From a virus, in the IMG/VR virus record IMGVR_UViG_3300033144_004572, positions 1-51,483 of that record: a stretch of DNA of 51,483 nt. One strand, 5' to 3'. The notes beneath the pieces were generated by a model that worked only from the letters and a program-made list of their open reading frames with translations, ran no database searches and was not told where the DNA came from. The translations under genes were made by a program, and so were the position numbers. This document shows, piece by piece, positions 1 through 28,554 of this stretch (positions are counted from its first letter, which is position 1; each line of letters starts with the position of its first letter).

Positions 1-384
1 GAGAGTGTTATTAGTGGTACATTTACTGGTAATGAGCCTGGTATAGCTTTAAGAGAGGGTATATTTGTAGGTGAGCAGGGCAAGGGAGTATTCAAGGTTC
101 TTGGTGCTATGGAGGGATTGGTAAGGGTCCAGGGTGCTAAGAAAGAAGTCGTTGAGAATCTTGCGTGGGGAGCTAAGCATTTTCCTGAACGTATCACTTA
201 TTGGCAGGAGGCTGTTAAAAGAGAAGAAAATGGCGATCCGTTTAATGTCACCAAGACAATGAGGATGCACTCTGATTGGATGAAGACAAAATATAAGTTG
301 CCGGATACTCCAAGAGGTATCAAGCAGTCTTTCAGAGATATAATTGCTACTTATGAGCCTTGGGTTTTAGAGAAAGAAAAAGAG
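1..384. repeat. Left copy of near-identical terminal repeat
   Basis: Aligned by eye without gaps to 51100-51483 (offset 51099). I count 16 mismatches in 384 bases. Most fall at third codon positions of the virion gene that crosses the ends, and the non-silent ones sit in four codons. This is what overlapping contig ends from two slightly different phage strains would look like. A genuine diverged duplication inside the gene is the alternative. Confidence 0.93.
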
Positions 385-732
385 CCGTCTGAAACAAAAG
401 CGTTACCAGCTGCGGGCGGGACTCTTAATAAGTATGATTATAAAATTCCTTTTGCTCCTGGTGGTGGTGGTACTGCTGGTGTTTCTCTTAGAGATATTGG
501 AAAGCCGTTTCAGTTTGTTGGGGAAGGAATGCAGTATATGGCTGGTGAAGGTAATTTGTGGAATAATCTGTTTGCTGGATCGGTGCCGTCATCTATGCCG
601 TCACTTGGTTGGGCGGCTGAGAATTTTAGGCCATATCCTTCACAAGAAGGAGCTAGTGCTGGATCGGCTTTAAGCCCAGAGATGCAATTACTTGAGGGGC
701 AAGCGACTATTCAGAACGAACTTGAGTATTAA
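1..732 (+). CDS. Internal virion protein, C-terminal part (gene continues from 50233 across the ends)
   Basis: The frame is open from base 1 and ends with TAA at 730-732; the first ATG in view (109) is internal. The same protein begins at 50233 at the other end of the window. Joining at the repeat gives about 532 residues. This part has a charged helical segment, then a Gly-rich stretch (around 430-480), then a Pro/Ser/Gly-rich tail. It lies directly upstream of the giant virion gene, after three other virion-block genes, so an internal or ejection protein role is inferred from position. No domain is recognised. Confidence 0.85.
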   Translation, partial: ESVISGTFTGNEPGIALREGIFVGEQGKGVFKVLGAMEGLVRVQGAKKEVVENLAWGAKHFPERITYWQEAVKREENGDPFNVTKTMRMHSDWMKTKYKLPDTPRGIKQSFRDIIATYEPWVLEKEKEPSETKALPAAGGTLNKYDYKIPFAPGGGGTAGVSLRDIGKPFQFVGEGMQYMAGEGNLWNNLFAGSVPSSMPSLGWAAENFRPYPSQEGASAGSALSPEMQLLEGQATIQNELEY

Positions 733-772
733 TTCCTATCCCGTCATAGAAAAGACGCAGTAGGGAGGAAAA

Positions 773-3700
773 GTGGTTTCAGTTAATGAGAATGTTTGGC
801 TGGAAAGAAGGAAGAAAGAGCTTAGAGAGAAGTTCAGGTATCAGGTCACTGATGAGAAGAGACTTGAGGCTCTTGTTACTAATCAAGCACAGGGAGAACT
901 ACAAGAGCTTTCCTCTGGTATAGGCACTCCACAGGACCAATTAAGGTTTCAAGCCACTGCACAGGGCATCTCTGTCCCAGCAGCGGCTTCTACGCCACAA
1001 GAGGGTATGTCCAGGGGTAATGTGACTCCGTTTGAGGCAGCTAATGATCTTGGGTTTGGCTGGCGATCGCCTCTTGAGTGGGCCAAGGGTATGGTCATGG
1101 AGCAGCCTTTAGGGGCTGAGACTAGACCGCAGTATGGCGTTGCTCGTCGTGAAGCGTATACCGGGTATCAAAATGAGAGTGATTGGAGTAGCGGTAGTAG
1201 GGCTACTGATGCGGCTTTAAACTTCATGTGGAACTTCTATGATACCTTTACTGTATTCGGCGGTCCCATTCAGAAGTTCATAGAGAAGAAGACAAATCTG
1301 AACGTATATCCCGATTGGACAGAGAATGTTCAGGATAGTCTTGTCAGGTCAGCTGGGCTGGTGGGTGGCGCTGCAGGATTGATTCTGCCGATGATGGCTA
1401 CAGCCGGTACTCATACTGCTGTTGCTGGTGGAGTAACTGCGGCTACTAAGTGGGGTACGCTGGGAAAAGTCCTCCGTATGTCGCCAATGCAGAAACTATT
1501 TGGTCTTGGCCGTAAGATTGCTCCAAAGGTTACTGCTGGAGTCATTCAGAAGGGTCTAAAGAAGACAGGGATAGAAGTAGCAAAGGCCGGTACTACTCAA
1601 CGATTTGTTGGTGAGGTCACAGGAAAGGCTATAGGCAAGAAGGCTACAGAAGGAGCCTCTAAGAGCTATGGTAGATTACTCAGTGATATAGTCTGGGGAG
1701 CTAAAGAGAAGCAGGTAATAAAGAGACTTGCTCATAAAGATACTTATGCTCAGGCTATGGAGGCGGCAAAGACATTTGCGAAGCGTGGAGTAGGCCAAGA
1801 GATCAAGCTGATGAAATCTAAGGGAATAAAGATTCCTGGGCTTGCTGCTGAAAACATAGATAATATTATAGAATCAGCTTTTAAGACACGCACATATGAT
1901 AAGGTCATGGATTTTGCTACCAGTAGGCTTGGTAAGCAGGCTCTTGGAATGATCGATCATGGTCTGGCTACTGGATTTGCTATGGCGATGCATGGTGGAG
2001 CTAAGTCTGCGGCAGAGTTGACAGCAGCGGAAGTCCCCATAAGTTCTCAGGTGCCTATAATCGCTAATACAGCACTATCATCCTTGGGTACAGGGATGAT
2101 GTTCTCGGTGATAGGGCAGATCCCTAATTTTGGTAAGGGTAGTGGTGGGGATGCTCTAGGCACTGTTCTAAGAGGACTTGGGCTTACGAATAAAGCAGCA
2201 GGTAAATTTACACAGCGTCTAGCTACCACCAAGCGTGCTCTAGGCAGCGGACTCAAACCTTCTGATATTGCTAAAAAGCAGATAGCAGGGATGACTGGTA
2301 CTCCGGCAGACGCTATGGATAAAGGGGCGTGGTGGTTCCCGAATAAAGAGAAGCTTCTGAAAACTGCTGCTGGTAGAGCGAAGATCGAGAATTGGGCTGA
2401 TTATATCAAGAAGGAGATTCTAACAGGCAGGAGTCCTATAGTCGGGAAGTCAAGCGGGCAGTTTCAGAATATTATCAAGGATGTGCGCCGGCCTGGGATG
2501 ATAAGTAAGCTGGCAGATGAGGTAGAGCAGTGGCAGCATCTTCATCGTATGTCGCTTATTAGGCATGGAGCTACTGGAACCTTGCAGGACTTTGGGTCTG
2601 CGCTTCCTCGTATGCTTGCAGGTTCGGTGTTGATGCACGCTCCTGAGATCATAAAAGACAGGGAATTTATAGAAGAGCATCCAGAAGACTTTCTTCATGG
2701 TATGCTTATGACCGCATATTTCACCAGATCTCCATCTAATCCTTATACTCAGATTCTAAAGACAGAGAATGGATTTAAGAATCGTGATCTTGAGTACGCA
2801 AGAAAGACGCTGCATTACACTGGTCTGTTTTTTCCTGAAGTATTTAGGAATGAGGATTTCGCTAAGTGGGCTGCGAGATATTCTAACGGTACTATCGTTG
2901 GAAAGGATATGTCACAGGATGCAAGAGCGCAGGAGATCCTTGATGTAATAGAGATTGCTTCTGGAGATAAGACAAAGCTTGGTAGTGAGACTATCAGGAT
3001 GCAGATGATAGAGACTGAGAAAGATATAGCTGCCACGCAGAAGAAAGAGACTTTTCTTAGGCGTAAGAAGAAGACTGCTCTTACATATAGCACTCTTAGA
3101 GATTCGCTTTTGAATAAGCAGGCAAGATTAGAGAAGGAAGATAAGAAACTTTCAGAGCATGATCAGGCGAGGCTAAAGAAATATGAAGCGGGAGTTACTT
3201 CTGCTAAGGGTGAGTTCATGGATGAGTACGGCAAGCCTGTCGTTGCAGAAGTAGAAGAAGAAATCTCTCTTTCCGGAGATGCCCTCGCTAATCATTATCT
3301 AAGTACTGAGGGCAAAAGATGGGCTTTCAATCGTACTATGGATGCTATCGATGGTCTAAGGGGTCCAAGAGCTCGAGGCGGCAGCAGGTTGGTGGATACG
3401 AGCAGATGGAGCGATAGTCAACGATGGAGAGTTTATACGGCTCTTCAGGAGCACTTCGGGACTACTGGCATACTTAATCCGAATATGGTGACTGATGTGG
3501 TCGATGCTGCTGTAGTGGATAATGATGTGCTGACTATGCGTTCTATTATGTATGACTCTGTTATGGGTACACACAATGAAATGAATGAGCGTTCTTACAG
3601 AGTTAGTAATCCTTCAAGAATAGTAGTGACTGGAGATAAGCTTGGGCTCACTCTTGAGGACTACGAGAATATGGCTACGCATAACGAGTTCCTTGGATAT

Positions 3701-6700
3701 TTTGCTGTTAATGGTGGTCCTGAGTTTCTTGCTGGTTCTAGGCAGATACTTACAGAAGAGAAAATAGCTCAGTATAAGGCTGAGGGAATAGAACTTGCTG
3801 CTCAAGTCGGGCAGCCCGATAGTCCTGTCCGTCATATAAAGACAAAGGCTGATCTTGAGGCTTTCCGGTTGGCGTGGGCTGGTGGATATGATCATAAGAC
3901 AAAGAAGCATGTCCCTGGTTTTTGGGATGGAGCTATGCAGAGATGGGAAAAGTTCTCGGGGGCTCCTGGTGAGACATTAAGAGAACATACAGTCAGAGAG
4001 TATCTTGTTAATAGAGCTGCTTATGGTTCTGTTGTGTGGAGCAGGCTTTTTCATACCGGAGAGATAGAACGAATACCAGTTATTATAGACAAAGCCGCTA
4101 AGGAACAAGCTGGGACATTTTATGCTGATAGTCAGAAGATCCCAACTGCTAGTGTTTCTGATTTTAGAGGGTTGTTTCTTGAGTCTGGCATAGTTCCTGG
4201 TACTGGTAAGAGGAAGATCGTCAGGAATATTCCTAATTATGAAGATCTGCCTAAAGAGTTTCGCAATACTTTGCCAGGATTACCAGATGGTACTGATCAA
4301 TATTATCTGACAAAGAAGGGTAGATGGGAAATACTACAGTCTTATGTAGATACACTGCCGTTTCTTATTGATAATTATGATAGGGGTTCAAAGGAACAGT
4401 TTACAAAGACAGAGTTCAGTGGACCTGAGATGGATTCAGTTAAGAATCTTTTAAATCTTATGCAGAATACAGGGCTGGCTCTACCGCCATCTCATTATAA
4501 AGAAGTACGCAACCATGTGCTTCGCAAAAGATACTCTGGAGCTTCCAATGAAGAGATAGCGTTTTTGTCTGCCTCAGATGAGCTTGGAGCTTTTGATTTC
4601 TTTAGTGGTCTGTATAAAATCCCAGGTGAGATAGGATTTAAGAAGGGCAAGGGGTTGGCAGGAGAGACAGTATTTGCCAATTTGAAGAAGACTGCGTTTT
4701 ATAAATCTGAGGCTGGACAAGAGATGCTGAGAACGCTTCAGAGTCTTTATGACAGAGGAATCATACAGGGAATTGAGGGCGGTGAGGGCGATATAATCTT
4801 AAAGGATACGTTTGGTAAAGAAGGTGGGTTAAAGCTCAATGGTGAGGAAGCATTTCAGTATCTTACAAGTGTGTTTAGAGCTCAGGGGGTAGTTGCTAGT
4901 AGAACGGCTGAACAAGTTACTGAAGATCTAATAAAGAAGCTTAATACAAAAGAGCTTCGTGAGAGCAATAAAGACTTGGCTGATTTTATGACTAACGATA
5001 TAGCTAAAATAGCTAAGGGTAACCCCAAGCAGACTTATAAGTTTATCAGAATACTCGAGCAAGAGGGTGTTATAAAAACTGTGTCTCCTGATGGTATTTA
5101 TGATGAGATAGCAGCTGAGAAGTTACTTACTCCCAGAATGAGAGAAAGAATGGAATCCTTCGTGTTGGGTTCTACTCTTAGGAATTTTGATAAAGCTACT
5201 GATGTCGAGGTACAGGAAAATATAGATATTGTTAATGAGTTCATGGGTAAGGTAGTAGCTAAAAGTAAGAAGGGATTTCAAGTACCGATATCACGATTTA
5301 TAGAAGAGTCTGGTATCCCAGATAATATTCTGACTGATGTAGTGATGGAGACTAGAGATGGCAAACTTATAAAAGATGGTCTTTCTCTTAGGGATTATAT
5401 ATTTGATCGTACTGTGGCCCGTGAGGGTGATCCTAAGACCGGAGAGTATCATAGTGTCCCTGGTCTTGCTAAGGCCGGGAACCAATATCTTTCTAGTCTT
5501 AATGGTAGTAAGTGGCATTCGATTCATTATCAGCTTAAGAATCTTCGAGAGGTGGAAGAGATAAAGTTTTCTAAAGGTACAGAGATTCTTAAGGATGGAG
5601 AAGATTTTGTAGAACTGGAGCCTCATAACAGAGTGGTAAGTAGTAAGACGAGAGTATACGGGAGTAGGCTTATAGATGAATTTTCTGCAGACGGCTTACG
5701 GTTTGTGAATCTAGGCGGTAAGATATCTACAGACAGAATTAAGAAGCCCTACAACCAGATGGCTGCATATGAAGAAGTCGAGTTTAACGCTGATCCCAAT
5801 CGTAGTTATGATGAGCTTATTAATCTCTATGATAGGACGTTTGATAGTCAAAAGATAGAAACTGTCAAGAGAGGCCGGCATGGGATTGCTGAACGTGGAG
5901 AGCTCAATGATATCTATGTTCCCATAGGTCCAAGTGGTAAGGACAGGGGATTTATGCTGGTGCTGCCCAGGGTAGGTGGCAAGGGAAGTGAATATGAGGC
6001 GTTCTACGGCAAAATGAGGGAGATTCATAGTAAGCTCTCAGAGATCAGGAATAAGATATCTGTGGATAAGGGATTAGAAGATAGTTGGGCCGGCAGAGAT
6101 GTTGAACTTCCTGGTATGGCTGATTCAATGCTGAAAGTATTTGAGAAGTTAGCTGATCCTGCTGTTATTGATCGGGCTCTTGCTGGTAAGTCTATTGCTA
6201 AGCTTGGAGTGGGCAAGAGCGCCATGCTTCATGCCATGCAGCTCTATGCTATCTCGAAGTCGTTTGGGATAGAGGCTTTCGATCAATTATATGAAGCCGA
6301 GAAAGAGCAGATATCGCTTCCTCATGGAGAGAAGAGTTCTAAGAAGGAAGCCATAGTAAAGGCTATATCAAAGTACTCGCACCAGATGACTAATATTAAA
6401 GCATCTCCGATTTTGGCTGAGACTTGGGATGTTTTAAAGAATGAGGCGAATGCTAAGGATCTGCATGGACCACAGCTTGAGGGAGATTATTTTCGCATAG
6501 CTGTTTTTGATGATAGCAAGAAGCCCTTGAAAAAGGGAGAAGAGTTCAACGGTCAAATAATGGGATCTGAGAGGGTGCTATATGGTTCGTCAAGAGGGTT
6601 TGGTGCCGATAGGATTCATCCACTGCAGAAGACTAATATAGTTACCAATGCTGCTTACGGAGAAGATGGAGCGACGTTTTCTATGTTGACGAAAGATTCT

Positions 6701-9700
6701 GTGCAATATGTCAGCAGTATTCAGGGTAGGTTTAATCAGTATGGAGTGGAGTATTTTGTGCCTGTATCAGCTCTCAAGTGGCCTACAAGTGGTAGTGTTA
6801 AAGAAGGGATGCTGACGATAGATGATATTGTAGGCAGTACGACTGGAAAGCCTAAGATATTTAAGATCCCTGTAAAAGATTTCCGCATGACGATGATGGG
6901 AGAAAACGAGAGTACGCAAGGCAATATCAGTCAGTACCAAGAGAACGGATTTACTGGTAAGGCTGCTGCTGAGTTCAGAGAGCAGTTTGCTCCCGATAGT
7001 GATAATGATTCTGGGTATAAGGCTTATCGTGGAATGCAGAAGCTCTTGAGTGCTGCGTATACGGGTGATACTGGTGCTGTAAGAGCCGCCAATGTCATGA
7101 TAAGGACATTTTATGGCATAAGTGAGCAGCAGGGGATATATGAAGATCCTACATTTGATGCTATTCATAAGAATCATATCTTCTCATCTCTTGATGCTAA
7201 CCCTATGGATGGGGAGTATAAGGCCAAGACAATAGGCTTTATAGATTCAAGAGTCATGAAGAGTCATATTCTTAAAAGACCTGATTCTGGTGCTCGTAAT
7301 GTCAAGATGCAGGTTTCATATCGAGATAGAGATGAAGCATGGGCTATGGGTACTCCAGACAAGCTTTCCTTTCGTGGAGAGAAGGGAGAGAGGCTTGGGG
7401 GCATAGGTACATCTCTGGGCTCTGGTTATGATATTGATATTCCGTTGCATGAGAACACTCAGTTTGCTGTTTATGATAAGGGGGCAGATACATGGGTCAT
7501 GGATACTGGCAGCGGTAAAGAATCTTTTGTAAAAATGGCTTCATCGTTGGTGAAGGGTGGCAAGAGACAGTTCAGTATGGCCTTTCAGAAGCATCTGGTA
7601 AATGAAGGTGTGGCAATTAATAATCCTACTGGTGTAGCTGCTGAGATGAAGAAATTCATGATCAGTAAGGGACCAAATAACATCCTTCTGCCCAGCACAG
7701 CATCTACAGAGGGTAGATTCTACGATATGATGGATTGGATGTTTGCCGGCACTGAACGCTTGCCTGATGGAAATGAGAGACTGCTGAAATCCTATGATTA
7801 TGGAGATGGAACACTTAAGAGAGGTGGGAACAAAATAGGTATAGTCTCGACTTGGCAGCGTACTCCAGGGTTCAAGGTCAACGATGCGGTACTATCCGTG
7901 AAAGAGGGGCTGTTGCCGAGATCTCATGGTAATGTCGGGATGCTCAATAGACATGATTTTGAGATCAGGTCTGAGGGTGATTGGGATTATGATGCGATGA
8001 CATATATGAATCATCTTGGTCCTGAAATCGTTAAGCAGCTCATACGTAATTCAGATGTAAAGGCATCTATAGACATTGATGCTCATAAGGATGCTTCCTA
8101 CTTTGATACAAACATGAAGCTAGGCAATCTGAAGGATTGGATGATACAGAAGCATCATGAGCATAAGGCGCAGGGTTTTGTTGGTCATGCTCAGAGATTA
8201 AATCAATCTTATAATCATGTGCTCAAGGCTCAGAAGTATCACGGTTGGACAGGCGAGGATGGGAAGAAATACTTTGTTGGTCCGAAGTATCGTAGTCAGC
8301 AGGAGATGATAGATGACGATACTCATCTTGATATTCCTGCTTACATACAGATCTTTACTGACTCAGCCGGCAAGAAATTGAGTAAGGCTACGTATAGCGA
8401 GTCATGGAAGAAGGCTATTTATAACAAGATGTTCGCTGTGTATGGAGAGAAGAACGGTCTGCCTGATTTTTCTAACGAGCTATCTCTGGTAGATAAGCCT
8501 AATTTTCATACTCAGGTAGAGTTGATGATGGGTCCGTACAATGATCTCAGTGCAGCCCTTAAGCCAGCGTCTAAGCGTGGTTATAAAAATGTCTTGGATG
8601 CCACAAGGACATACGCTTCGAGAGCGTGGGGGCTCGAGAAGAATAAGAATCAAGCTGAATCCACCAGTATGAATCGCTACATACTCTCGAGACTTAATAA
8701 ATGGTCTGACCGATCGCTCCAGCGAGAGTTTCTAATGTCGGTGGCTTCTGATAAAGAGGCTATGGCAGAGGATTTTGGGAAGTATTATGGATCGGGGAGA
8801 AAACTTAAGACTGATAAGGGTGGTAAGTGGGGTAATATTTGGGCAAGGATGATGAAGAACATCGATATGTCCAAATCCATAGAGTTCACTCTTAATCCTG
8901 AGTATATGTCTGTACGAGAGAAGATAGCTCAGAGGGTCAATGAGGACAGCCTGATACTTCATCCTGATAAATATGAGGGTATAGCAAAGCATGAGATAGA
9001 GTCTTTATCTGTACTCAATGATTATACGCAGCAGTTAGGCGGTCTGCCCTCTAACAAGGCTATAGGGGATATTGGGAGATCGCTCTATAGCTGGAAAGAG
9101 AATCAGGCAGTAGGGATCATGGAAGAAGCTGTAGCAGACAGGGATAGGATAGAGTTAGAACTGGCAGAATACGCTAATCAGAACCTTACTACGGCAGATG
9201 TAAGGGTTAGGGGCGCCAGGGCTGAGAGAGATTCGTTGAACAAGTATATATCAAGAGCACAAAGAAAGGTCACGCAGAGTAGGTGGGCTGATAAGTCTGA
9301 GCGATTTATTCTGAATGATGGTAAAAAGGGTGTTCCTGGTAGAGTGAAAACGATGAATGATAATGACGTCATCAATCGTTATATTGGTCACCTGTCTTAC
9401 GAGAAGCTTAAGGGTACATTGGCAGAGGGACAGGATTCCGGAACGGTAGCACAGCTTGTTAATGAAGCTGATGATCTCAATAAGAAGTTCACAGGTATGC
9501 TCGCAGGTTCTTTTAAATCTGGTAAGGGCAAGGTATTTTATAAATTAGGAGACAATAAAGGTGTCTACGGGGATTTGACAAAGGATGTGGTCAATAGGGC
9601 AGAAGCGGTCCTTACTGAGCAATTTGTGAATAAATGGGAAGGCATGGGATTGGGGCAACTTGCTGCATTAGCAGTAGCTTCCAGACGTTCTAATGATATT

Positions 9701-12700
9701 GAGGGCTGGTGGAGGCTCAATATCAAAGAGAAGGGGGCAGATAAGGCTGATATGCCTGTATATAAGGGAGCAAGGCTCAAGGCTCTACGTCACCTCAGTA
9801 AGCAGAATTTGGGTGCTCTGGCGCAGATAAGGGCTGTAGTGAGGCATTCTATCAGTGGGCAGACGCCGGAGGCTTCTATGGCCCTTTTTGCAGGGGATAG
9901 AGAGAACGCAGCTTCTCTTCTGGGTAGGTCTGGACATCCTTGGATGCCTACAGAGAGTACTTCTGCTAATGTGGGAGTAAGGGAAGCTCTTAATAGACAG
10001 ATGATTACTGGAGATGCGGGTATGCCGGTACGGGTAGTCAGGGGTCCGTCACCGCCTATTGTAGCTATGGATCCATCAGAATATCTGATAGTTAAGGTGA
10101 AAAAGAATCAGTGGGAAGTGACTTCTGCTGGTAGGCTTATGGAGATCCTGATGGAGAATGATCGATATACCTATAAGACAGCTAGTCAGATAGTCTCAAT
10201 GGCTTCGCTCAATAAGAATAAAGGACTCGATCTTACGAATGTAGATCCCAGCCATCCTCTGTCTGAGGTAGCTGCAGTATATATAGAGACTGCTAAGGCT
10301 CATCTGCCTACGTATGATGTAGATGATCAAAGGCTTATGACAAAATGGGTAAGGAACCTTGAGAAACAACCGAAGAACAATCCGTTATTCACTACAGTAA
10401 CCAGTGCATTTCGTAGAGATGCGCTCAGAAACAGTGGACCTTCTGAGGGGCCATCCGGTAAGGGTGCAATGCTACCTCCTTCAGACCTCCCTCCTGTCTC
10501 TGGCGGCGAAGGCACTACGGGTGGTCCTTCAGATAAATCTAAGGGGTATGTCAGACCCCCTCCTATTCCTGGCGGTAGTATAACAGCAGAAGAAAAGCAG
10601 ATGGTTACTACTAGGCTGAACAGGCTTATAAAAGAGTGGAGCGCACCAGATGGTAGAGTGAAAGAGATGTATGGAGGTAAGTGGGATATAGAATCATGGG
10701 CAAGACGAGTGCTTATGAAGGATCTTGATGCGAATGTGATGAATGTTAAAGATATTGCTGTGCTTGAGACTGCATTCGAGAGATTAAAGACAGGGATAAC
10801 TCGTAGAGAGAGGATGGGTAAGGGTGTGGTGTGGAAGGTTGCGAAGAAGTTGTTCCCGTCAACAGGAGCTACTGCCGATGACGCTGAGTCAGGGCAGATG
10901 GCTAAGGATGTCGAGCATCAGGAGTTTGTTAGGCAGAATTGGGAGACTGTATACGCCAGAGATATAAATAATGTCTCTACTAATCTTGATAAGCTTTATA
11001 AGATGCTTGGCTATTCCACTAAAGCTAATAAGGCAGCTACAGAACTTGGTGTTCTCGAGGAAAAACAGAGTGTTTTGGCTAAGAAAATACAGAATAAAGA
11101 AAGAGCTCACAGGCTTCGTGGTACTAATCCTGCCAAGGATCAGGCTCTTAAGGAATTGATGGCGAAGAAGACTAAGGCTGATGATACTCTCTTGGCTTTT
11201 ACTGAAGGTGAAAGTCCTGGGGGGATAAAGAACGCTGATGTAAACAATGTCAATCACGCTGTAGTGGCACTTGTAGAATCTATCCAAGAGATGAAGGGGG
11301 ATACTATAGTATGGAATCCTAAGAGGCAGGATGTAGTAGATAGTATTCTTGGGAATAGAAAGATGGGTACAAAGGGTGTCTTCTCGCACGCAGAGTTTGA
11401 GCTAGTCGAATCCACAAAGTCAGTACATAAGTTCTTTAAGAGTCTGTATCCTGTAGTTGAAAAGGGATTCAAGGATTATAAAGAGCTGATGGGAATACGA
11501 TTTGATCAAACAGAAGTAACCACTACTGTCGATGATATGATGAAACAGTTCTTATTGGGATCAGTAGACGGGTACTTTCCTAAGTTCAATAGTAATTTCC
11601 TTCATGATGCCGCTTGGATATCTGATTTTGTAGGCTCGACTACTGACATGGGATATCTGGATATTATAAAAGGTACTGCTCTTGATTTTACTGGCGGTAA
11701 GGGAACGCAGAATATCGTGCATAGAGTCGGGAGCGAAGAATACAGCAAGAATCCTCTTATGGTGATGACAAGGTATGCTAATAATGCGGTGATGTTTGCT
11801 TATAAGAATGCTCTTGAACTTCAATTTACTAAGACTATTGGTAGGTTAAATACTAGGATCTTTAATGATCCTGATTTTAATCATAAGAAATTCGAGAAGC
11901 AGACTAAGAATATGATACAGTATATAGAGGATCTACGAAAGACTACTGTATCTATGGATGAGGGTAGTGAATTTCTCAATAAGGCTTCAAGATATATACG
12001 TGGGATAGAGTTGGTATCAAAGCTTGGGTTCAGGCTTAGTACTCCTATGCGTAACATTACTCAGATAGCTGCTGGTATGGCTGCTACTGGTGTAAGAGAT
12101 ACTATCACGGCTCTTAAGTGGGCAAAGACGCAGGAAGGGCAGGATTTTCTAGGGGAGGTTATTGCTAAGGGTGGAGTAGGAGACATTGAATCTCTTACTA
12201 CAAGTCAGAAGATGCAGTCTATGTATACCGGAGAGAATCCTTTCGGTGATAAGATCGATCGTACTTTTAATAAGCTCATTAGCAAGATGCTTATTCCTCT
12301 GCAGAAGATGCCGATTGTCGGAGAGCATGATGCCAGGACGATGCTTAGAACTGTTGTGCTTCATAATGTCTATAAGCAGATGAATGGAGATCCTTATTGG
12401 AATTATGTGTTTGAGACTAGGCAATTCAGTCCCAGGATGCTAAAGGCATACCCAGAGTTGGAACAGTTTATAGATATAGGTGCAGATGGGAAGATGCAGA
12501 ATGAGGGAGAGTGGGGTAAGGTCTGGAAGCAACAGATGTTTAATTTTATGAGGTATCAGGGTGAGCATCTGGCTTCTGAAGTAATCAGTAATATTCATTT
12601 TGGATATAGCATGGGGTCAAGAGCAGAAGCCTTACGTACACCTATTGGTGCGATGATGCTGCAGCTTAAACACTTCTCGATGAAGAACGCTGAGATGTGG

Positions 12701-13372
12701 ATAAGATTTGTGGATGATGCTAGGTCTAGGTATAAAGTCAGTAAGAAGGACGGTATCAATGAGGGCTGGGGTACGTTCTTGAAGTCTCGAGAAGGCAAGG
12801 CGATGGCTGAGTTAGGACTATTCACGGCTTTGACTCAGGGGATGAAATTCATAGTGCCGTTTGGAGTGGGATGGATGTTCAGACCTGATTTTGCAGAGCT
12901 TATATCTCATGGGTCTGATGCTATTCAAGCCTTTGCTGCTGATGATCAGAAAGCTATTGATAAGACGTTCTACAAGAAGGGTATCCCACAGTTGCTTGCT
13001 GGTCCTGTTCTTGGTGATGCGACACTATTCTTAAATATCTTGTTTGCTAATCAAATAGGAGATCCTAGTAATTTTACTAAGATGGTAGCAGGGTTTAGAG
13101 ATTATCAAGATATAGATGATGCAGAGATGTTTCATAAGTTTGCTCGAATGATCGGGCCGGCTGCTGTAGCTGATGCTGCATATTATGATATGCCAGAAGC
13201 CATTGAGAGTAAGGGCCGGTCTATTCCCGCAAGTCTCCTTTCTCAGTTAGGATTTAGGTATAGGTCAGATGAGGGATCTGTATCAGAGAAAATCGGAGAG
13301 GGATTGATGGGACAGTACGATAAGATAAAGAGAAAGAAAAAAGGAATCAGTATAAATCGACCGATTATATAA
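773..13372 (+). CDS. Giant 4199-residue internal virion (ejection) protein, possible RNA polymerase-like domain
   Basis: Start is GTG at 773 behind GGGAGGA; no stop for 12.6 kb, about a quarter of the genome. N-terminal region (about residues 190-460) has Gly/Ala-rich hydrophobic segments. A Gly/Pro/Ser-rich linker at about 3220-3265 separates the body from a C-terminal region containing GFRLSTPMRNITQIAAG (about 3750). Position between internal virion genes and the endolysin matches giant ejected proteins of podoviruses such as N4 and crAss-like phages. Residues 2403-2409 read DWDYDAM, like the D-F-D-G-D-x-M catalytic loop of double-psi-barrel RNA polymerases, with an upstream WQRTPG stretch. 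No T7-type polymerase motif or lytic transglycosylase motif was seen. The virion role is likely; the polymerase idea is speculative. Confidence 0.9.
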   Translation: MVSVNENVWLERRKKELREKFRYQVTDEKRLEALVTNQAQGELQELSSGIGTPQDQLRFQATAQGISVPAAASTPQEGMSRGNVTPFEAANDLGFGWRSPLEWAKGMVMEQPLGAETRPQYGVARREAYTGYQNESDWSSGSRATDAALNFMWNFYDTFTVFGGPIQKFIEKKTNLNVYPDWTENVQDSLVRSAGLVGGAAGLILPMMATAGTHTAVAGGVTAATKWGTLGKVLRMSPMQKLFGLGRKIAPKVTAGVIQKGLKKTGIEVAKAGTTQRFVGEVTGKAIGKKATEGASKSYGRLLSDIVWGAKEKQVIKRLAHKDTYAQAMEAAKTFAKRGVGQEIKLMKSKGIKIPGLAAENIDNIIESAFKTRTYDKVMDFATSRLGKQALGMIDHGLATGFAMAMHGGAKSAAELTAAEVPISSQVPIIANTALSSLGTGMMFSVIGQIPNFGKGSGGDALGTVLRGLGLTNKAAGKFTQRLATTKRALGSGLKPSDIAKKQIAGMTGTPADAMDKGAWWFPNKEKLLKTAAGRAKIENWADYIKKEILTGRSPIVGKSSGQFQNIIKDVRRPGMISKLADEVEQWQHLHRMSLIRHGATGTLQDFGSALPRMLAGSVLMHAPEIIKDREFIEEHPEDFLHGMLMTAYFTRSPSNPYTQILKTENGFKNRDLEYARKTLHYTGLFFPEVFRNEDFAKWAARYSNGTIVGKDMSQDARAQEILDVIEIASGDKTKLGSETIRMQMIETEKDIAATQKKETFLRRKKKTALTYSTLRDSLLNKQARLEKEDKKLSEHDQARLKKYEAGVTSAKGEFMDEYGKPVVAEVEEEISLSGDALANHYLSTEGKRWAFNRTMDAIDGLRGPRARGGSRLVDTSRWSDSQRWRVYTALQEHFGTTGILNPNMVTDVVDAAVVDNDVLTMRSIMYDSVMGTHNEMNERSYRVSNPSRIVVTGDKLGLTLEDYENMATHNEFLGYFAVNGGPEFLAGSRQILTEEKIAQYKAEGIELAAQVGQPDSPVRHIKTKADLEAFRLAWAGGYDHKTKKHVPGFWDGAMQRWEKFSGAPGETLREHTVREYLVNRAAYGSVVWSRLFHTGEIERIPVIIDKAAKEQAGTFYADSQKIPTASVSDFRGLFLESGIVPGTGKRKIVRNIPNYEDLPKEFRNTLPGLPDGTDQYYLTKKGRWEILQSYVDTLPFLIDNYDRGSKEQFTKTEFSGPEMDSVKNLLNLMQNTGLALPPSHYKEVRNHVLRKRYSGASNEEIAFLSASDELGAFDFFSGLYKIPGEIGFKKGKGLAGETVFANLKKTAFYKSEAGQEMLRTLQSLYDRGIIQGIEGGEGDIILKDTFGKEGGLKLNGEEAFQYLTSVFRAQGVVASRTAEQVTEDLIKKLNTKELRESNKDLADFMTNDIAKIAKGNPKQTYKFIRILEQEGVIKTVSPDGIYDEIAAEKLLTPRMRERMESFVLGSTLRNFDKATDVEVQENIDIVNEFMGKVVAKSKKGFQVPISRFIEESGIPDNILTDVVMETRDGKLIKDGLSLRDYIFDRTVAREGDPKTGEYHSVPGLAKAGNQYLSSLNGSKWHSIHYQLKNLREVEEIKFSKGTEILKDGEDFVELEPHNRVVSSKTRVYGSRLIDEFSADGLRFVNLGGKISTDRIKKPYNQMAAYEEVEFNADPNRSYDELINLYDRTFDSQKIETVKRGRHGIAERGELNDIYVPIGPSGKDRGFMLVLPRVGGKGSEYEAFYGKMREIHSKLSEIRNKISVDKGLEDSWAGRDVELPGMADSMLKVFEKLADPAVIDRALAGKSIAKLGVGKSAMLHAMQLYAISKSFGIEAFDQLYEAEKEQISLPHGEKSSKKEAIVKAISKYSHQMTNIKASPILAETWDVLKNEANAKDLHGPQLEGDYFRIAVFDDSKKPLKKGEEFNGQIMGSERVLYGSSRGFGADRIHPLQKTNIVTNAAYGEDGATFSMLTKDSVQYVSSIQGRFNQYGVEYFVPVSALKWPTSGSVKEGMLTIDDIVGSTTGKPKIFKIPVKDFRMTMMGENESTQGNISQYQENGFTGKAAAEFREQFAPDSDNDSGYKAYRGMQKLLSAAYTGDTGAVRAANVMIRTFYGISEQQGIYEDPTFDAIHKNHIFSSLDANPMDGEYKAKTIGFIDSRVMKSHILKRPDSGARNVKMQVSYRDRDEAWAMGTPDKLSFRGEKGERLGGIGTSLGSGYDIDIPLHENTQFAVYDKGADTWVMDTGSGKESFVKMASSLVKGGKRQFSMAFQKHLVNEGVAINNPTGVAAEMKKFMISKGPNNILLPSTASTEGRFYDMMDWMFAGTERLPDGNERLLKSYDYGDGTLKRGGNKIGIVSTWQRTPGFKVNDAVLSVKEGLLPRSHGNVGMLNRHDFEIRSEGDWDYDAMTYMNHLGPEIVKQLIRNSDVKASIDIDAHKDASYFDTNMKLGNLKDWMIQKHHEHKAQGFVGHAQRLNQSYNHVLKAQKYHGWTGEDGKKYFVGPKYRSQQEMIDDDTHLDIPAYIQIFTDSAGKKLSKATYSESWKKAIYNKMFAVYGEKNGLPDFSNELSLVDKPNFHTQVELMMGPYNDLSAALKPASKRGYKNVLDATRTYASRAWGLEKNKNQAESTSMNRYILSRLNKWSDRSLQREFLMSVASDKEAMAEDFGKYYGSGRKLKTDKGGKWGNIWARMMKNIDMSKSIEFTLNPEYMSVREKIAQRVNEDSLILHPDKYEGIAKHEIESLSVLNDYTQQLGGLPSNKAIGDIGRSLYSWKENQAVGIMEEAVADRDRIELELAEYANQNLTTADVRVRGARAERDSLNKYISRAQRKVTQSRWADKSERFILNDGKKGVPGRVKTMNDNDVINRYIGHLSYEKLKGTLAEGQDSGTVAQLVNEADDLNKKFTGMLAGSFKSGKGKVFYKLGDNKGVYGDLTKDVVNRAEAVLTEQFVNKWEGMGLGQLAALAVASRRSNDIEGWWRLNIKEKGADKADMPVYKGARLKALRHLSKQNLGALAQIRAVVRHSISGQTPEASMALFAGDRENAASLLGRSGHPWMPTESTSANVGVREALNRQMITGDAGMPVRVVRGPSPPIVAMDPSEYLIVKVKKNQWEVTSAGRLMEILMENDRYTYKTASQIVSMASLNKNKGLDLTNVDPSHPLSEVAAVYIETAKAHLPTYDVDDQRLMTKWVRNLEKQPKNNPLFTTVTSAFRRDALRNSGPSEGPSGKGAMLPPSDLPPVSGGEGTTGGPSDKSKGYVRPPPIPGGSITAEEKQMVTTRLNRLIKEWSAPDGRVKEMYGGKWDIESWARRVLMKDLDANVMNVKDIAVLETAFERLKTGITRRERMGKGVVWKVAKKLFPSTGATADDAESGQMAKDVEHQEFVRQNWETVYARDINNVSTNLDKLYKMLGYSTKANKAATELGVLEEKQSVLAKKIQNKERAHRLRGTNPAKDQALKELMAKKTKADDTLLAFTEGESPGGIKNADVNNVNHAVVALVESIQEMKGDTIVWNPKRQDVVDSILGNRKMGTKGVFSHAEFELVESTKSVHKFFKSLYPVVEKGFKDYKELMGIRFDQTEVTTTVDDMMKQFLLGSVDGYFPKFNSNFLHDAAWISDFVGSTTDMGYLDIIKGTALDFTGGKGTQNIVHRVGSEEYSKNPLMVMTRYANNAVMFAYKNALELQFTKTIGRLNTRIFNDPDFNHKKFEKQTKNMIQYIEDLRKTTVSMDEGSEFLNKASRYIRGIELVSKLGFRLSTPMRNITQIAAGMAATGVRDTITALKWAKTQEGQDFLGEVIAKGGVGDIESLTTSQKMQSMYTGENPFGDKIDRTFNKLISKMLIPLQKMPIVGEHDARTMLRTVVLHNVYKQMNGDPYWNYVFETRQFSPRMLKAYPELEQFIDIGADGKMQNEGEWGKVWKQQMFNFMRYQGEHLASEVISNIHFGYSMGSRAEALRTPIGAMMLQLKHFSMKNAEMWIRFVDDARSRYKVSKKDGINEGWGTFLKSREGKAMAELGLFTALTQGMKFIVPFGVGWMFRPDFAELISHGSDAIQAFAADDQKAIDKTFYKKGIPQLLAGPVLGDATLFLNILFANQIGDPSNFTKMVAGFRDYQDIDDAEMFHKFARMIGPAAVADAAYYDMPEAIESKGRSIPASLLSQLGFRYRSDEGSVSEKIGEGLMGQYDKIKRKKKGISINRPII

Positions 13373-13384
13373 CGGGGTGTGAAG

Positions 13385-13897
13385 ATGGGTATTAAATTTC
13401 CAGAGGATACTAACAGATTTATTCTCTCGCCTAATTTTAAAGCGAAGGAGTTTGAATGTAAGTGTGGATGTAGAAAATTGATTATAAATCCACGTTTACT
13501 AACTGCGCTGGAACGTACCAGGGGAAGACTTACAGAGAAAATTGGTGAGGAATTTCCGATAACTATTTCGAGTGGTGTCAGATGTGTTGAAGGACAGAAA
13601 GCTATCTATCAACAGATAAACAGAAATCGTAGGCTTATGGGGCTCAGAGAACTACGGATGCCAAAGGTAGGTTATCATGTTCTAGGAGTGGCTATTGATA
13701 CTCTCTCTATCATAGCGCCAGAAGATGAGCATAAACGAGAGCAATGGATTGATGCCTTATATTCTGATGGTTGGAAGGGTATAGGCATACAGCATCAGAG
13801 ATCAAATATGGAAAATGAGGTGATCCAGATCGGATTTACTCATCTTGACGTAAGAATGGGGGCTCTTGCGCTTTGGTATTATGGTGGGGGGCGATAA
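13385..13897 (+). CDS. Endolysin, peptidase M15-like (D-Ala-D-Ala carboxypeptidase/L-Ala-D-Glu endopeptidase type)
   Basis: About 170 residues. Zinc-site pattern of M15 peptidases is visible: SSGVRC near residue 63-67, H98-x-x-G-x-A-x-D105, and H153-L-D155 near the end. N-terminal CKCGC at 26-30 is typical of the M15_3 phage/prophage type. It would cleave peptidoglycan peptide cross-links at lysis. ATG at 13385 is preceded by GGGGTGTGAAG; a GTG at 13379 is an alternative start. It follows the giant virion gene after 12 bases and overlaps the next gene by one base, forming a small lysis pair. Confidence 0.88.
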   Translation: MGIKFPEDTNRFILSPNFKAKEFECKCGCRKLIINPRLLTALERTRGRLTEKIGEEFPITISSGVRCVEGQKAIYQQINRNRRLMGLRELRMPKVGYHVLGVAIDTLSIIAPEDEHKREQWIDALYSDGWKGIGIQHQRSNMENEVIQIGFTHLDVRMGALALWYYGGGR

Positions 13898-14316
13898 TGA
13901 ATGAGACTACTTGGATCAAAGAGATGCTGCAATATGCACCAGCATGGCTCATCGCTGCATACTTTGGATACAAGATATTAGTAAGAGCGATTGATGTCTG
14001 GAAGATGAAGAAACTAGAGAAACAAGGAATCAAACTGAATGGAGATAGAAAATATAAACAAAGTGATCTTAGAATTTTATCGGAAGCAGTTGCAGAAACT
14101 AATAAGGAACTGAAAGCCATGACAGTATACTTTACAAAGCGACAGGATGATATTAAGGATCAGACAGAGATTTGTCTTAATGGTATCAAGAATGAGATTC
14201 ATGATCAGATAGATGAACAGACCAAGACTCTTGCAGAAAAGCATGATACAGGAAATAATCTATTGTCTCGAATGCTTGGTAAGTTAGATACAATGGTAGT
14301 GTTTATGTCTAAATGA
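13897..14316 (+). CDS. Small membrane-anchored coiled-coil protein, putative holin/lysis accessory
   Basis: 139 residues. The start ATG shares its A with the endolysin stop (TAATG), with GGTGGGGGGCG upstream. One hydrophobic segment lies at about residues 14-31 (APAWLIAAYFGYKILV), followed by a long charged helical region. Single-membrane-span proteins next to endolysins are often holins or pinholins, but the long cytoplasmic coil is unusual. Function is inferred from location only. It is the last plus-strand gene before the shared terminator. Confidence 0.8.
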   Translation: MNETTWIKEMLQYAPAWLIAAYFGYKILVRAIDVWKMKKLEKQGIKLNGDRKYKQSDLRILSEAVAETNKELKAMTVYFTKRQDDIKDQTEICLNGIKNEIHDQIDEQTKTLAEKHDTGNNLLSRMLGKLDTMVVFMSK

Positions 14317-14549: not shown

Positions 14550-14995
14550 GATGCCACAAGGGGAGTTTGAGTGAAGAGAGTATTTGGTGTTAATACTATT
14601 CTTTCATCTGTTAGCATATCTATTGTGACTTCAATGATTCTAGGACGATACACAAGTACTTTAGATCCTTTTTTCTTAGGTTTTAATTTCCATCCTATTA
14701 CCAAGATCCTATGATTAGGTAAAGATAGCCATAGTGCAGCCAATGCAGCGACATCAGATTCATCACATATCTTTCGCTTACGGTTAGACATGTTGCTATC
14801 ACTAGTACACTGTACTCCTACCATTTCTACACCGGGGAGAATACCTACAATATCAATAAATCTGTACAGATCTCTTCGTATACCACCGGCAGGATGTTTG
14901 GGTATGTTTATCCAGTGTTCTGTTTTGTCAGAAATGTATCCATGACTACGCATGAACTCTAATGTATGTACAGTCATTGATTTCTTTCCTGGCAT
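14546..14995 (-). CDS. PD-(D/E)XK-like nuclease family protein
   Basis: 149 residues. The segment RRDLYRFIDIVGILPG followed by VGVQCTS, then a basic RKRKI stretch, matches the common phage pattern R-x-D-x-x-x-x-x-D ... VQ(V/C)T seen in VRR-NUC/PD-(D/E)XK-like phage nucleases, where the usual (E/Q)xK is altered. If active it would be a small DNA endonuclease. The gene is preceded by AAGGAG and by structured element A (15014-15084). Assignment rests on a short motif. Confidence 0.75.
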   Translation of the reverse strand: MPGKKSMTVHTLEFMRSHGYISDKTEHWINIPKHPAGGIRRDLYRFIDIVGILPGVEMVGVQCTSDSNMSNRKRKICDESDVAALAALWLSLPNHRILVIGWKLKPKKKGSKVLVYRPRIIEVTIDMLTDERIVLTPNTLFTQTPLVAS

Positions 14996-15013
14996 GATGC
15001 TCCTTAAAAAGTA

Positions 15014-15084
15014 GAGAGTGCCGGAGTCGCAAATGCTAGAGATTTGCCTGAATCGGCAAAGGTAGGAGTGAATCCAGCACTCTC
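15014..15084 (-). ncRNA. Structured RNA element A
   Basis: On the minus strand a 12-bp stem GAGAGTGCTGGA / TCCGGCACTCTC (one U-G wobble, which would be an A-C mismatch on the plus strand) closes a 71-nt element. Inside, two hairpins share bases and exclude each other: TTTGCC-GATTCA-GGCAAA and GCAAAT-CTCTAGC-ATTTGC. The 3' side continues TACTTTTTAAGGAG into the ribosome binding site of the gene at 14995. It lacks the T-arm and D-arm spacing of a tRNA. Function unknown. Confidence 0.65.
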
Positions 15085-15094
15085 CGAGGTTTTA

Positions 15095-19771: not shown

Positions 19772-20163
19772 TAGAATAGTTCTCCTTGTGGTCCGGTCGG
19801 TCCTGTATAGAGTTTCCAATACAAAGGATGTCCTTCCCAGTATGGATTACCAGCGCGATAGATATCTCCTTTCACATGTCTAAAGTTCCAGGTTCCGGGG
19901 CAGTAGCCTTCTCTTTTTTTCTTGATGTTGGGTTCACCATTCTCGTCGATGCTGTGTTCTTCATACGCTATTAGCAATGGTAGCCATATAGGGCCATATC
20001 TACCTGGCCTGCCTCTGACGAACTCGAGTCCAGTATAACATTCTTTCTCTGGTTGTTGAGACTGATCCCATAATCGTAGTATCTTGAGACACTGTACCTT
20101 CTCTCCATGTGCAGGATAAAGGATATCTCCTGGTACTAGTTTACTTGTGTCAAGGCTCGACAT
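19771..20163 (-). CDS. Hypothetical protein (130 aa)
   Basis: Rich in Gly, Pro, Trp and Tyr, with a C-terminal TGPTGPQGE. It overlaps the upstream Lar-like gene by 14 bases and the downstream start by one. No domain recognised. Confidence 0.75.
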   Translation of the reverse strand: MSSLDTSKLVPGDILYPAHGEKVQCLKILRLWDQSQQPEKECYTGLEFVRGRPGRYGPIWLPLLIAYEEHSIDENGEPNIKKKREGYCPGTWNFRHVKGDIYRAGNPYWEGHPLYWKLYTGPTGPQGELF

Positions 20164-20578
20164 CTTTAGCTTTCATTGGTTCGGTTTCGGTCAGGAGCCG
20201 GGTGAGGGCGGCATCTGCTTCTTTTATAAACTCTGCCGTGTCAAATATACTCGGATACCGCACAAACGCCTTACTAGATTCACGCATCTCATCCCGCACC
20301 TTCTCCACGCCTGAGCGGAGGAAGGTATACTTGGCTATGAGCGTGATATAGCGCACCTCACGGTCTTCGGGGCTGCGACGCTTTAGCTTTATTACGTTCT
20401 CCGCCTCTGCGCTGCGGCGGTTCCAGATAGCTATGTTCTTGTCTGTTATTTCCCAATAGCATCCAGATAACGGGCAATCATCAGTACCGGGATGCACATA
20501 ATGCGTCATTATCTTGCCACCGGTTTTGAGCCATTCCCTTCCACATATCGGACACGGCTTCAGTTCAGTCTCGGTCAT
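20150..20578 (-). CDS. Lar-like (restriction alleviation) zinc-finger protein
   Basis: 142 residues. LKPCPICG (C9, C12), a second pair C35/C40 and the closing AIWNRR form the pattern of the Lar/phage restriction-alleviation zinc finger family. True Lar proteins modulate host type I restriction; many homologues are only zinc fingers, so anti-restriction activity is inferred. The C-terminal half is helical and not part of that family. Start is preceded by GGAGGCCGATC, one of the repeated junctions in this region. Confidence 0.8.
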   Translation of the reverse strand: MTETELKPCPICGREWLKTGGKIMTHYVHPGTDDCPLSGCYWEITDKNIAIWNRRSAEAENVIKLKRRSPEDREVRYITLIAKYTFLRSGVEKVRDEMRESSKAFVRYPSIFDTAEFIKEADAALTRLLTETEPMKAKDVEP

Positions 20579-22551: not shown

Positions 22552-22870
22552 CAGCAGGACCATCTCTTTCTTCATCATGAATATCACCAGTAGGCAACAT
22601 CTTTCCTCGAGTGTTGAGCTGGTAGTGAACAGCTTGTCTGATTGCTAGTACTGCTGCTTGACATGCTACTTGAAGAGCTGGACCTACATTGAGATGGTTA
22701 GGAGCATCATCTTTAGTCCAGGTATCATTGTTTACTGTAAAATCAGTGATTCTTTCCTGTCCTGAAAATAATCCTAAAGTAGCTCTTATACTTCCATCAA
22801 CAGTATAACTAAAGGATATGACTTCAGCGTGGTCTATCCTGATATCAATCTCGTTGCCTTTTACTATCAT
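22541..22870 (-). CDS. Hypothetical protein (109 aa)
   Basis: Beta-rich N-terminal half, helical middle (ALQVACQAAVLAIRQAV) and acidic C-terminus. ATG 22870 follows GAAAGGAAACG directly after element B. No family recognised. Confidence 0.78.
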   Translation of the reverse strand: MIVKGNEIDIRIDHAEVISFSYTVDGSIRATLGLFSGQERITDFTVNNDTWTKDDAPNHLNVGPALQVACQAAVLAIRQAVHYQLNTRGKMLPTGDIHDEERDGPADAT

Positions 22871-22892
22871 CGTTTCCTTTCATTAATAAATA

Positions 22893-22950
22893 AGGGGTTG
22901 CGCTTCTATAGTACGTTTATCGAGTACTATGCTTAAGCCTAACAACCCCT
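22893..22950 (-). ncRNA. Structured RNA element B
   Basis: Minus-strand AGGGGTTG / CAACCCCT (8 bp) encloses a perfect inner stem ATAGTAC / GTACTAT (22908-22914 with 22924-22930) around a 9-nt loop. It is followed by TTATTTATT and then the ribosome binding site of the gene at 22870. It fills most of the 104-base gap between that gene and 22975. Confidence 0.6.
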
Positions 22951-22974
22951 CATTTTCATGCTACTCAGGCATGA

Positions 22975-26005: not shown

Positions 26006-26310
26006 GTTGCTATCACCGTTATCTGCTCACCGGCTACCTTAAGTAAATCAATCGCATACGAGAACTCTCTGCCTGGGCGTAATGTCTCGAGTATGCGCCT
26101 TGATTTGACAGGATGCTCAAATTCAACACCTGTAATCTCTCCCTCTGTGACTCTGAGCTTCACAACGATAGTTCCACCGCCGTTAATAGTCCATATCTTC
26201 TCAGTACTGCCTTTGAGTAGCTTTCTGATGGTATCTCTCAGCTGTCGGCTACGGGAGAGCTTAAGAGCTGCCCAGAGATGATAAATCACGCTTGATTCTC
26301 TTCTGTTCAT
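26002..26310 (-). CDS. Hypothetical protein (102 aa)
   Basis: ATG 26310 follows GAAAGGATAGAACA just after element C. Basic helical N-terminal half, beta-rich C-terminal half. The plus-strand complement is also open but has no ribosome binding site. No family recognised. Confidence 0.78.
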   Translation of the reverse strand: MNRRESSVIYHLWAALKLSRSRQLRDTIRKLLKGSTEKIWTINGGGTIVVKLRVTEGEITGVEFEHPVKSRRILETLRPGREFSYAIDLLKVAGEQITVIAT

Positions 26311-26331: not shown

Positions 26332-26392
26332 AAAGAGTGCCAATAATTAAAGACTTCCAGAGACTTAAGTTCAGTAATTACCAGCACTCTTT
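26332..26392 (-). ncRNA. Structured RNA element C
   Basis: An 18-bp minus-strand stem, AAAGAGTGCTGGTAATTA with TAATTATTGGCACTCTTT, includes three consecutive G-U wobbles and no mismatches, around a 25-nt loop. Followed by TATTTATG and the ribosome binding site of 26310. The stem shares GAGTGCTGG and GGCACTC with element A, 11 kb away. A 26-codon GTG-started frame (26387-26307) runs through it and ends as ATGA on the next start. Confidence 0.68.
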
Positions 26393-26413: not shown

Positions 26414-26447
26414 ATGTAATACTCACATTACATGAGCCGGTTCATGT
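26414..26447. other. Two adjacent short inverted repeats after the 26447 gene
   Basis: ATGTAAT-ACTCAC-ATTACAT (26414-26433) and ACATGA-GCCGGT-TCATGT (26430-26447) overlap by four bases, so only one could form as RNA at a time. They sit next to TTGACA on the minus strand (26444-26449). Either operators or a small terminator/processing site. Confidence 0.55.
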
Positions 26448-26683
26448 CAATCCTCCTTTTGCTTAAGTTTTTCCTCAATATATGTTCCTGTTGTGAGCAG
26501 AGTGCCAGTAGGGAACACATATTGCAAGCACTGAAGCTTTAATCCTGATGTTAAACGTGGTATGATGGCTTTAATTGTAGTTCCGATCGTTGATGATATT
26601 GTTGTTGAAACGGGAGTACGTCTACCTTCACGCCAACATTCTATGATGAATCCATTTTCGACTATCTTGATTATTAAGTACAT
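26447..26683 (-). CDS. Hypothetical protein (78 aa)
   Basis: ATG 26683 follows AAGGAGATAAC directly after element D. Thr/Ile-rich middle, basic-acidic C-terminus. No family recognised. Confidence 0.76.
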   Translation of the reverse strand: MYLIIKIVENGFIIECWREGRRTPVSTTISSTIGTTIKAIIPRLTSGLKLQCLQYVFPTGTLLTTGTYIEEKLKQKED

Positions 26684-26701
26684 GTTATCTCCTTAAAAGA
26701 A

Positions 26702-26773
26702 AAAGGGATAGTCACACTTAACTCCTAAAGGTCCTTGTGGACTCTGGTTAAGCAATAGCCATACTATCCCTTT
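26702..26773 (-). ncRNA. Structured RNA element D
   Basis: Minus-strand AAAGGGATAGT / ACTATCCCTTT is an 11-bp perfect stem followed by TTCTTTTAAGGAG. Inside, CTTAAC / GTTAAG and GTCC-ACAA-GGAC give a nested second stem and terminal hairpin. It lies directly after element E and before gene 26683. Confidence 0.68.
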
Positions 26774-26793
26774 CGCTTCGCTTAAAAGAATAA

Positions 26794-26943
26794 AGACAGG
26801 CTTCAGTATGAAATACCAAGCAACAATCTGAAGTGGACCTCTAATTAGACAGAGAAGGCGCCTCTAGCTGGCTAACATAGCAGATCTGTTACTATGTTTC
26901 AACCCTGACTTGGTTTTGCTTATTAAGGTCCAGGTTCCTGCCT
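26794..26943 (-). ncRNA. Structured RNA element E (150 nt, multibranched)
   Basis: Outer minus-strand stem AGGCAGG / CCTGTCT (one G-U). Inside are TGGACCT / AGGTCCA (26926-26932 with 26834-26840), AACATAG / CTATGTT (26892-26898 with 26874-26880) and CTTCAG / CTGAAG (26828-26833 with 26801-26806). These are mutually compatible and give a branched fold. A 58-codon frame crosses E and D but has no usable start codon. Confidence 0.65.
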
Positions 26944-26944
26944 A

Positions 26945-27048
26945 AAAGGATGTAAGTACGGATCTAGCAATAATGGCTACGTCAGCTGCTTTTAGAGACT
27001 GTTACCAGCTCTACAGCCTAGGATCACTGACTCACCGGAACATCCTTT
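26945..27048 (-). ncRNA. Structured RNA element F (104 nt)
   Basis: Minus-strand AAAGGATGT / ACATCCTTT, 9 bp perfect, followed by T then element E with almost no spacer. Inside, GTCAG / CTGAC, TAGAG / CTCTA and TAGC-CATTATT-GCTA are possible. It begins 13 bases after the stop of the 27062 gene. Confidence 0.6.
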
Positions 27049-27061
27049 ATAACTTTATGAT

Positions 27062-27226
27062 TCATATTCGTTTGATCTTGAACCGAAAGACATCTCCCCA
27101 TTCGACTTCACAGTTATTTCTGGCTGCTCGAGCTTCTATTATCGTTGGGTATGTACCATAACTCTCCCAAGATGATTTTGTGGGCTTTGTCTTTTCTCTT
27201 CCTACTACTTTAAACTTCTCTATCAT
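27062..27226 (-). CDS. Small basic protein (54 aa)
   Basis: ATG 27226 overlaps the upstream stop as ATGA. Begins MIEKFKVVGREKTKP, contains a Tyr/Trp-bearing middle (SSWESYGTYPTIIEARAARN) and ends FRFKIKRI. No family recognised. Open frame upstream of the ATG has no start codon. Confidence 0.75.
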   Translation of the reverse strand: MIEKFKVVGREKTKPTKSSWESYGTYPTIIEARAARNNCEVEWGDVFRFKIKRI

Positions 27227-27435: not shown

Positions 27436-27540
27436 CTATTCCTTCCTCATCATCTTCTTCCATAAGCGACTGATGCCTAATACTATCAGACAGAATAGAA
27501 AGACTACGACTGTTGCCATCAGGATAGCTACTCCTATCAT
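27436..27540 (-). CDS. Membrane microprotein (34 aa)
   Basis: ATG 27540 behind TTGGAGACAATAAAT. One transmembrane helix fills residues 3-24 (GVAILMATVVVFLFCLIVLGI), followed by a positive tail RLWKKMMRKE, so N-out/C-in topology is likely. First gene after elements G and H. Function unknown. Confidence 0.78.
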   Translation of the reverse strand: MIGVAILMATVVVFLFCLIVLGISRLWKKMMRKE

Positions 27541-27572: not shown

Positions 27573-27671
27573 CAAGAGAATGGGCTTTTACACGGATATG
27601 TTTTCAAAGAGTAGTCTATCCCGCCTAGAACAATGACTTGCTCTGATTACTTCACCGCAACCATTCCCTTG
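27573..27671 (-). ncRNA. Structured RNA element H
   Basis: Minus-strand CAAGGGAATGG / CCATTCTCTTG, 11 bp with one G-U, followed by CCTTTTCTTT. Inside, AGAGCAA-GTCA-TTGTTCT is a 7-bp hairpin with one wobble and a 4-nt loop. It directly follows element G and precedes the membrane microprotein. Confidence 0.65.
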
Positions 27672-27683
27672 TTAAATACTTTG

Positions 27684-27767
27684 TCAGTAGGTGAACCAGT
27701 GCGTAGACCGCTGTACTAGGGATAACGCATACCCTTGACATACACGGATTCCTGGTTCTTCAGTCAT
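27684..27767 (-). CDS. Possible 27-residue micro-ORF inside element G
   Basis: ATG 27767 preceded by TAGGTAGGAA; stop TGA lies in the closing stem of element G. Peptide begins MTEEPGIRVC and ends HWFTY. It could be a leader peptide whose translation opens the structure, or chance. The exact fit between frame and stem is the main reason to list it. Confidence 0.35.
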   Translation of the reverse strand: MTEEPGIRVCQGYALSLVQRSTHWFTY

Positions 27768-27789
27768 TTCCTACCTACTCACCTACTGA
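27684..27789 (-). ncRNA. Structured RNA element G (106 nt)
   Basis: Minus-strand TCAGTAGGTGA / TCACCTACTGA, 11 bp perfect. A second perfect 7-bp stem, GAACCAG / CTGGTTC (27752-27758 with 27693-27699), overlaps its 3' arm by two bases. Inner TGCGT / ACGCA and AGGG / CCCT pairs are possible. The element encloses a 27-codon reading frame with its own ribosome binding site. Confidence 0.65.
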
Positions 27790-27822: not shown

Positions 27823-27845
27823 GGGGGAAGACTGAATCCTCCCCC
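27823..27845 (-). terminator. Intrinsic terminator after the 27863 gene
   Basis: Minus strand GGGGGAGGA-TTCAG-TCTTCCCCC, 9 bp with one wobble, followed by TTTTATCT. It lies 18 bases past the stop of 27863-28123 and would separate the first two genes from the rest of the leftward operon, with read-through or new promoters needed downstream. Confidence 0.85.
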
Positions 27846-28340: not shown

Positions 28341-28403
28341 GATTGTCTCCTTACCAGAGTGTGCTAGAACGTTGAGAATCTAACCTCAATACCTATAGGG
28401 GTA

Positions 28404-28420
28404 ACCCCCCGAAGGGGGGT
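28404..28420. other. GC hairpin with CUUCGG loop in the leftward leader
   Basis: ACCCCCC-TTC-GGGGGGT on the minus strand, about 65 bases upstream of ATG 28340. Flanking GGGAC and TTACCCC offer alternative pairings (for example GGGG-TTA-CCCC). It could stabilise the 5' end of the leftward transcript or act as an attenuator. Confidence 0.65.
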
Positions 28421-28554
28421 CCCATATATATATATCTTACCTACTCACGGTGTACGGTATGATTTCACAGATAGAATTATTATATATTCTATTATTTTAT
28501 AATTATGATATATATAGGTTTATAGAGTATTATAATTATTTAGATATATATTGC

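Follow-up and report, generated by a model that had tools for sequence, protein, structure and literature searches.

In the early mRNA of phage T7, intercistronic hairpins work as RNase III processing sites, among them R0.3, R0.5, R1, R1.1, R1.3 and R3.8. As measured on folds, these T7 hairpins end roughly 19-35 nt ahead of the next start codon. The unusually long hairpins described below are best read as a new example, in an orphan and unclassified phage, of this already known arrangement.

The window, meaning the whole stretch of DNA that was analysed, is a 51.5-kb linear virus record in which terminase, portal, major head protein, DnaB helicase and endolysin are recognisable at family level only. 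Genes at 109-14316 point rightward, those from 28340 down to 14546 leftward, and those from about 28630 onward rightward again. On the plus strand, a 4199-aa ORF (773-13372) gave no Pfam, PHROG or convincing PDB match, and its size suggests an ejected virion protein. The leftward, minus-strand replication-gene operon encodes DnaB, many small genes and one tRNA-Met, and most of its gene-to-gene gaps measure -22 to 12 nt; where our crude gene list shows longer gaps devoid of a hairpin, genes have probably been missed. Two further features of the minus strand were observed, a strong GGGACCCCCCTTCGGGGGG hairpin in the operon leader (28386-28440), possibly a 5'-end stabiliser, and a gene at 20150-20578 resembling the Lar-like restriction alleviation protein family phrog_599. 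The locus of interest lies in this operon and comprises three neighbouring elements, termed D, E and F, with the following surroundings:

26447-26683, minus strand: 78-aa gene with an AAGGAG ribosome-binding site, preceded by F
26701-26774, minus strand: element F, a rod-like hairpin of 11 bp plus a G-U closing pair (12-bp outer stem, arms 26763-26774/26701-26712); stem p 0.005, fold z -4.7, terminator d-score 4.2
26794-26943, minus strand: element E, a proposed three-way junction with a 7-bp closing stem (arms 26937-26943/26794-26800); stem p 0.78, fold z -1.5, computed with the full outer stem
26945-27048, minus strand: element D, a hairpin with a 9-bp closing stem (arms 27040-27048/26945-26953); stem p 0.085, fold z -1.9
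27062-27226, minus strand: 54-aa gene from ORF analysis, ending just ahead of D
27823-27845, minus strand: conventional intrinsic terminator 3' of the operon's second gene, used as comparison standard; d-score 17.3

A sequence-only reading had placed three large structured RNAs back to back here, with outer stems of 9, 7 and 11 bp, in a stretch devoid of a usable gene. Its coordinates and stem lengths were borne out on the minus strand, as were the short spacers (1 nt between D and E, 19 nt between E and F), and between 27062 and 26683 no minus-strand ORF of at least 28 aa, and no credible gene, was found in 378 nt. The claim of three structures as a set did not hold. The best outer stem of each untrimmed gap was compared with 400 dinucleotide-preserving shuffles, a fairer measure than the z-scores of stem-trimmed elements, which are biased toward stronger structure. 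F is a real hairpin and D is borderline; E did no better than the shuffles and probably does not form a structure of its own. As background, 120-nt windows were scanned from 14.4 to 31 kb on both strands; their z averaged -0.2 with a standard deviation of 1.3, against which F stands out moderately and D does not. The whole D-E-F stretch on the minus strand gave a fold z of -2.5, with 1 of 100 shuffles equally good. The minus strand was favoured, not exclusively, with plus-strand z-scores of -4.0 for F, -1.7 for D and +0.6 for E. U-rich sequence, said to follow each element, was present after E and F; D is followed by four U only, three of them inside the stem.

The gaps of the minus-strand operon contain at least six well-supported long-stem hairpins, F included, each with a stem p of 0.01 or less against shuffles. 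The five others, of the same design as F and absent from the sequence-only reading of the locus, are:

27684-27789, minus strand: hairpin C, 12-13-bp outer stem, adjoining B, with no U tract; stem p <0.0025, fold z -2.4
27573-27671, minus strand: hairpin B, 11-bp outer stem, 32 nt ahead of the ATG at 27540; stem p 0.01
26332-26392, minus strand: hairpin with an 18-bp stem including three G-U pairs, 21 nt ahead of the ATG at 26310; stem p <0.0025, fold z -4.5
22888-22955, minus strand: hairpin with a 14-bp outer stem, 17 nt ahead of the ATG at 22870; stem p <0.0025, gap fold z -5.4
15013-15085, minus strand: hairpin with a 13-bp outer stem, directly 3' of the tRNA-Met and 17 nt ahead of the ATG at 14995; stem p <0.0025, z -5.1

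Together with F, whose stem ends 17 nt ahead of the ATG at 26683 and carries a U-rich tail, five of the six stems at p of 0.01 or less thus sit 17-32 nt before an ATG, each with a Shine-Dalgarno sequence, while C, D and E are not directly in front of a gene. G-U pairs were seen on the minus strand, the three in the 18-bp stem at 26332 being consecutive, and fit an RNA of that strand. No comparable hairpin set was observed in the plus-strand operons of the phage. In about 80 distant phage contigs, only 15 of 299 comparable gaps had a hairpin of this kind lying no more than 40 nt from a start codon; this survey, limited to loops of at least 20 nt, is a rough yardstick, as it found three in the window and missed the gaps of F and B, probably owing to spurious ORFs placed there.

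In our preferred reading, F, probably D, and the hairpins at 15013, 22888, 26332, 27573 and 27684 are cis-acting mRNA elements, most likely processing or stability signals (probability about 0.42). The hairpins would mark the borders of gene blocks in the polycistronic minus-strand mRNA, all but C and D lying directly ahead of the ribosome-binding site of the next block. Their long, imperfect helices could be cut by RNase III or could block nucleases, and either event would give the next gene a short, clean leader. The hairpins themselves, their positions, their short and even spacing from the start codon and their U-rich tails are observed, whereas their being cut, or protecting the mRNA, is inferred. 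Five elements lie between cistrons just before the next ribosome-binding site, the position characteristic of the T7 sites. A helix of the T7 type has about one to two double-stranded turns; here the stems measure 11-18 bp in six elements, 9 bp in D and 7 bp in E, with interrupted inner helices. Counting against this reading are the absence of a sequence consensus among the elements, the borderline status of D, and plus-strand folds that are nearly as good for several elements. For F and the hairpins like it in other gaps of the operon, a regulatory role, as proposed earlier, is plausible.

Termination or attenuation competes closely with processing, most of all for F. Each hairpin with its U tract might act as a leaky intrinsic terminator or attenuator with a long, structured loop, lowering transcription into the next gene block, whose level read-through would then set. 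F resembles an intrinsic terminator in its G-C-rich stem base (GGG/CCC) directly before a U tract, UUUUUCUUUU, with a d-score above the threshold of 0, and the earlier dismissal of termination was therefore too hasty. It differs in its structured 50-nt loop and in the next ribosome-binding site, which follows immediately. Additionally, U is enriched at -30 to -13 before the hairpin-led genes (7-10 of 18 positions, versus a median of 4 of 18 before 25 other operon genes; p 0.0005), although this U-rich stretch is equally explicable as an AU-rich leader or a nuclease site. The 3' arm of the 26332 hairpin is nearly duplicated over 12 nt further upstream, in the preceding gene (26499-26510, minus strand); this copy could compete for the 5' arm through a potential 12-bp pairing, an attenuator-like alternative. 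Every element except F, however, scored below the threshold: 26332 at -8.1, 22888 at -17, E at -21, D at -31, 15013 at -38, B at -48 and C, which has no U tract, at -71. These values, -8 to -71, fall within or below those of the T7 RNase III sites (-1.5 to -28), whereas terminators range from 5 to 17, and T7 TE scored 7.5. Ordinary terminators with short loops also occur in this phage, at 27845 and 14344 (17.3 and 5.4). The strong terminator at 27823-27845 implies that the remaining operon needs read-through or its own promoter.

The sequence-only reading had suggested that D, E and F may be stable small RNAs. Such a role for them and for C and B, with release from the operon transcript and action in trans against the host, is unlikely. 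No credible gene occupies the roughly 350 nt of D-E-F or the roughly 270 nt of C-B, although genes elsewhere in the operon are closely packed, and the tRNA gene of the same operon adjoins one of the hairpins, both of which would suit such RNAs; promoters, however, were not enriched (34 sites versus 42 expected), and E is not structured above chance. Separately, ACTATAGAAG in the loop of the 22888 hairpin was considered as a phage promoter and rejected, the motif not being enriched. Rfam 15 (4227 families) yielded nothing at the gathering threshold in the window except the tRNA-Met, in agreement with the earlier statement that no matching family was known. A local Rfam search of the D-E-F region found nothing credible up to E = 10 (best E 2.6, a eukaryotic snoRNA family), and neither Rfam nor ARAGORN assigned the elements to a known ribozyme, tRNA-like RNA or other known RNA.

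Usable homologues were likewise not found in IMG/VR, GTDB contigs or INPHARED, searches from which records very near the window may be absent. Protein and alignment scans of IMG/VR with early and late genes returned nothing or only portal and terminase relatives at 20-29%, the closest at about 25-29%, and a tRNA-Met anticodon-arm pattern search gave no match. Among the 28 pairs of elements, none was similar after correction (best p 0.0125). The hairpins at 15013-15085 and 26332-26392 (minus strand), 11 kb apart, have both outer-stem arms in common, AGAGTGCTGG and GGCACTCT, a statistically weak likeness (uncorrected p 0.0125). When AGAGTGCTGG...GGCACTCT was tried as a homologue marker, three contigs matched, all within ORFs, and these were attributed to chance. 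Sequence similarities between D and B and between B and 22888 disappeared under stricter gap costs. It is very improbable that D-E-F and C-B form tandem arrays of discrete phage-encoded RNAs from a structured family not yet described, which would leave the operon transcript and act either in trans or on RNA polymerase, with the single hairpins as reduced forms; mRNA processing or regulation is more likely than a new RNA family.

The short and regular stem-to-ATG distance (17-21 nt in four cases) would also suit insulators that keep the next ribosome-binding site clear of upstream mRNA structure, a role we consider quite unlikely. In silico scrambling of the hairpin made opening of the start region costlier at 22870 (0 of 30 shuffles as easy) and 26310 (2 of 30), but had no effect for F (14 of 30), 14995 (14 of 30) or 27540 (15 of 30). 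Insulation was rejected as a general role, since only two genes showed this effect.

Should the hairpins prove to be processing or attenuation signals, the T7 strategy of hairpin-cut gene blocks would also exist in a lineage unrelated to T7, built there on another type of hairpin, and direct cut-site predictions would follow for a future isolate; if they are terminators only, the finding is ordinary. Phage-borne tRNA and small-RNA arrays share with this locus the tandem non-coding elements inside an operon, here with a tRNA-Met nearby, but D, E and F have no Rfam family or tRNA match. Compared with the T7 RNase III sites, the architecture differs: T7 has small loops, which a hairpin search for loops of at least 20 nt does not pick up, whereas the loops here span 25-90 nt and contain inner helices. 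Furthermore, the T7 sites share the sequence AAGGUC...GGCCUUUAUGAU within one genome, and the phage elements have no shared sequence. In both phages, the hairpins are intercistronic, occur several per operon and end a few tens of nt ahead of the following start codon, with A-rich sequence before the stem, U-rich sequence after it and overlapping terminator scores.
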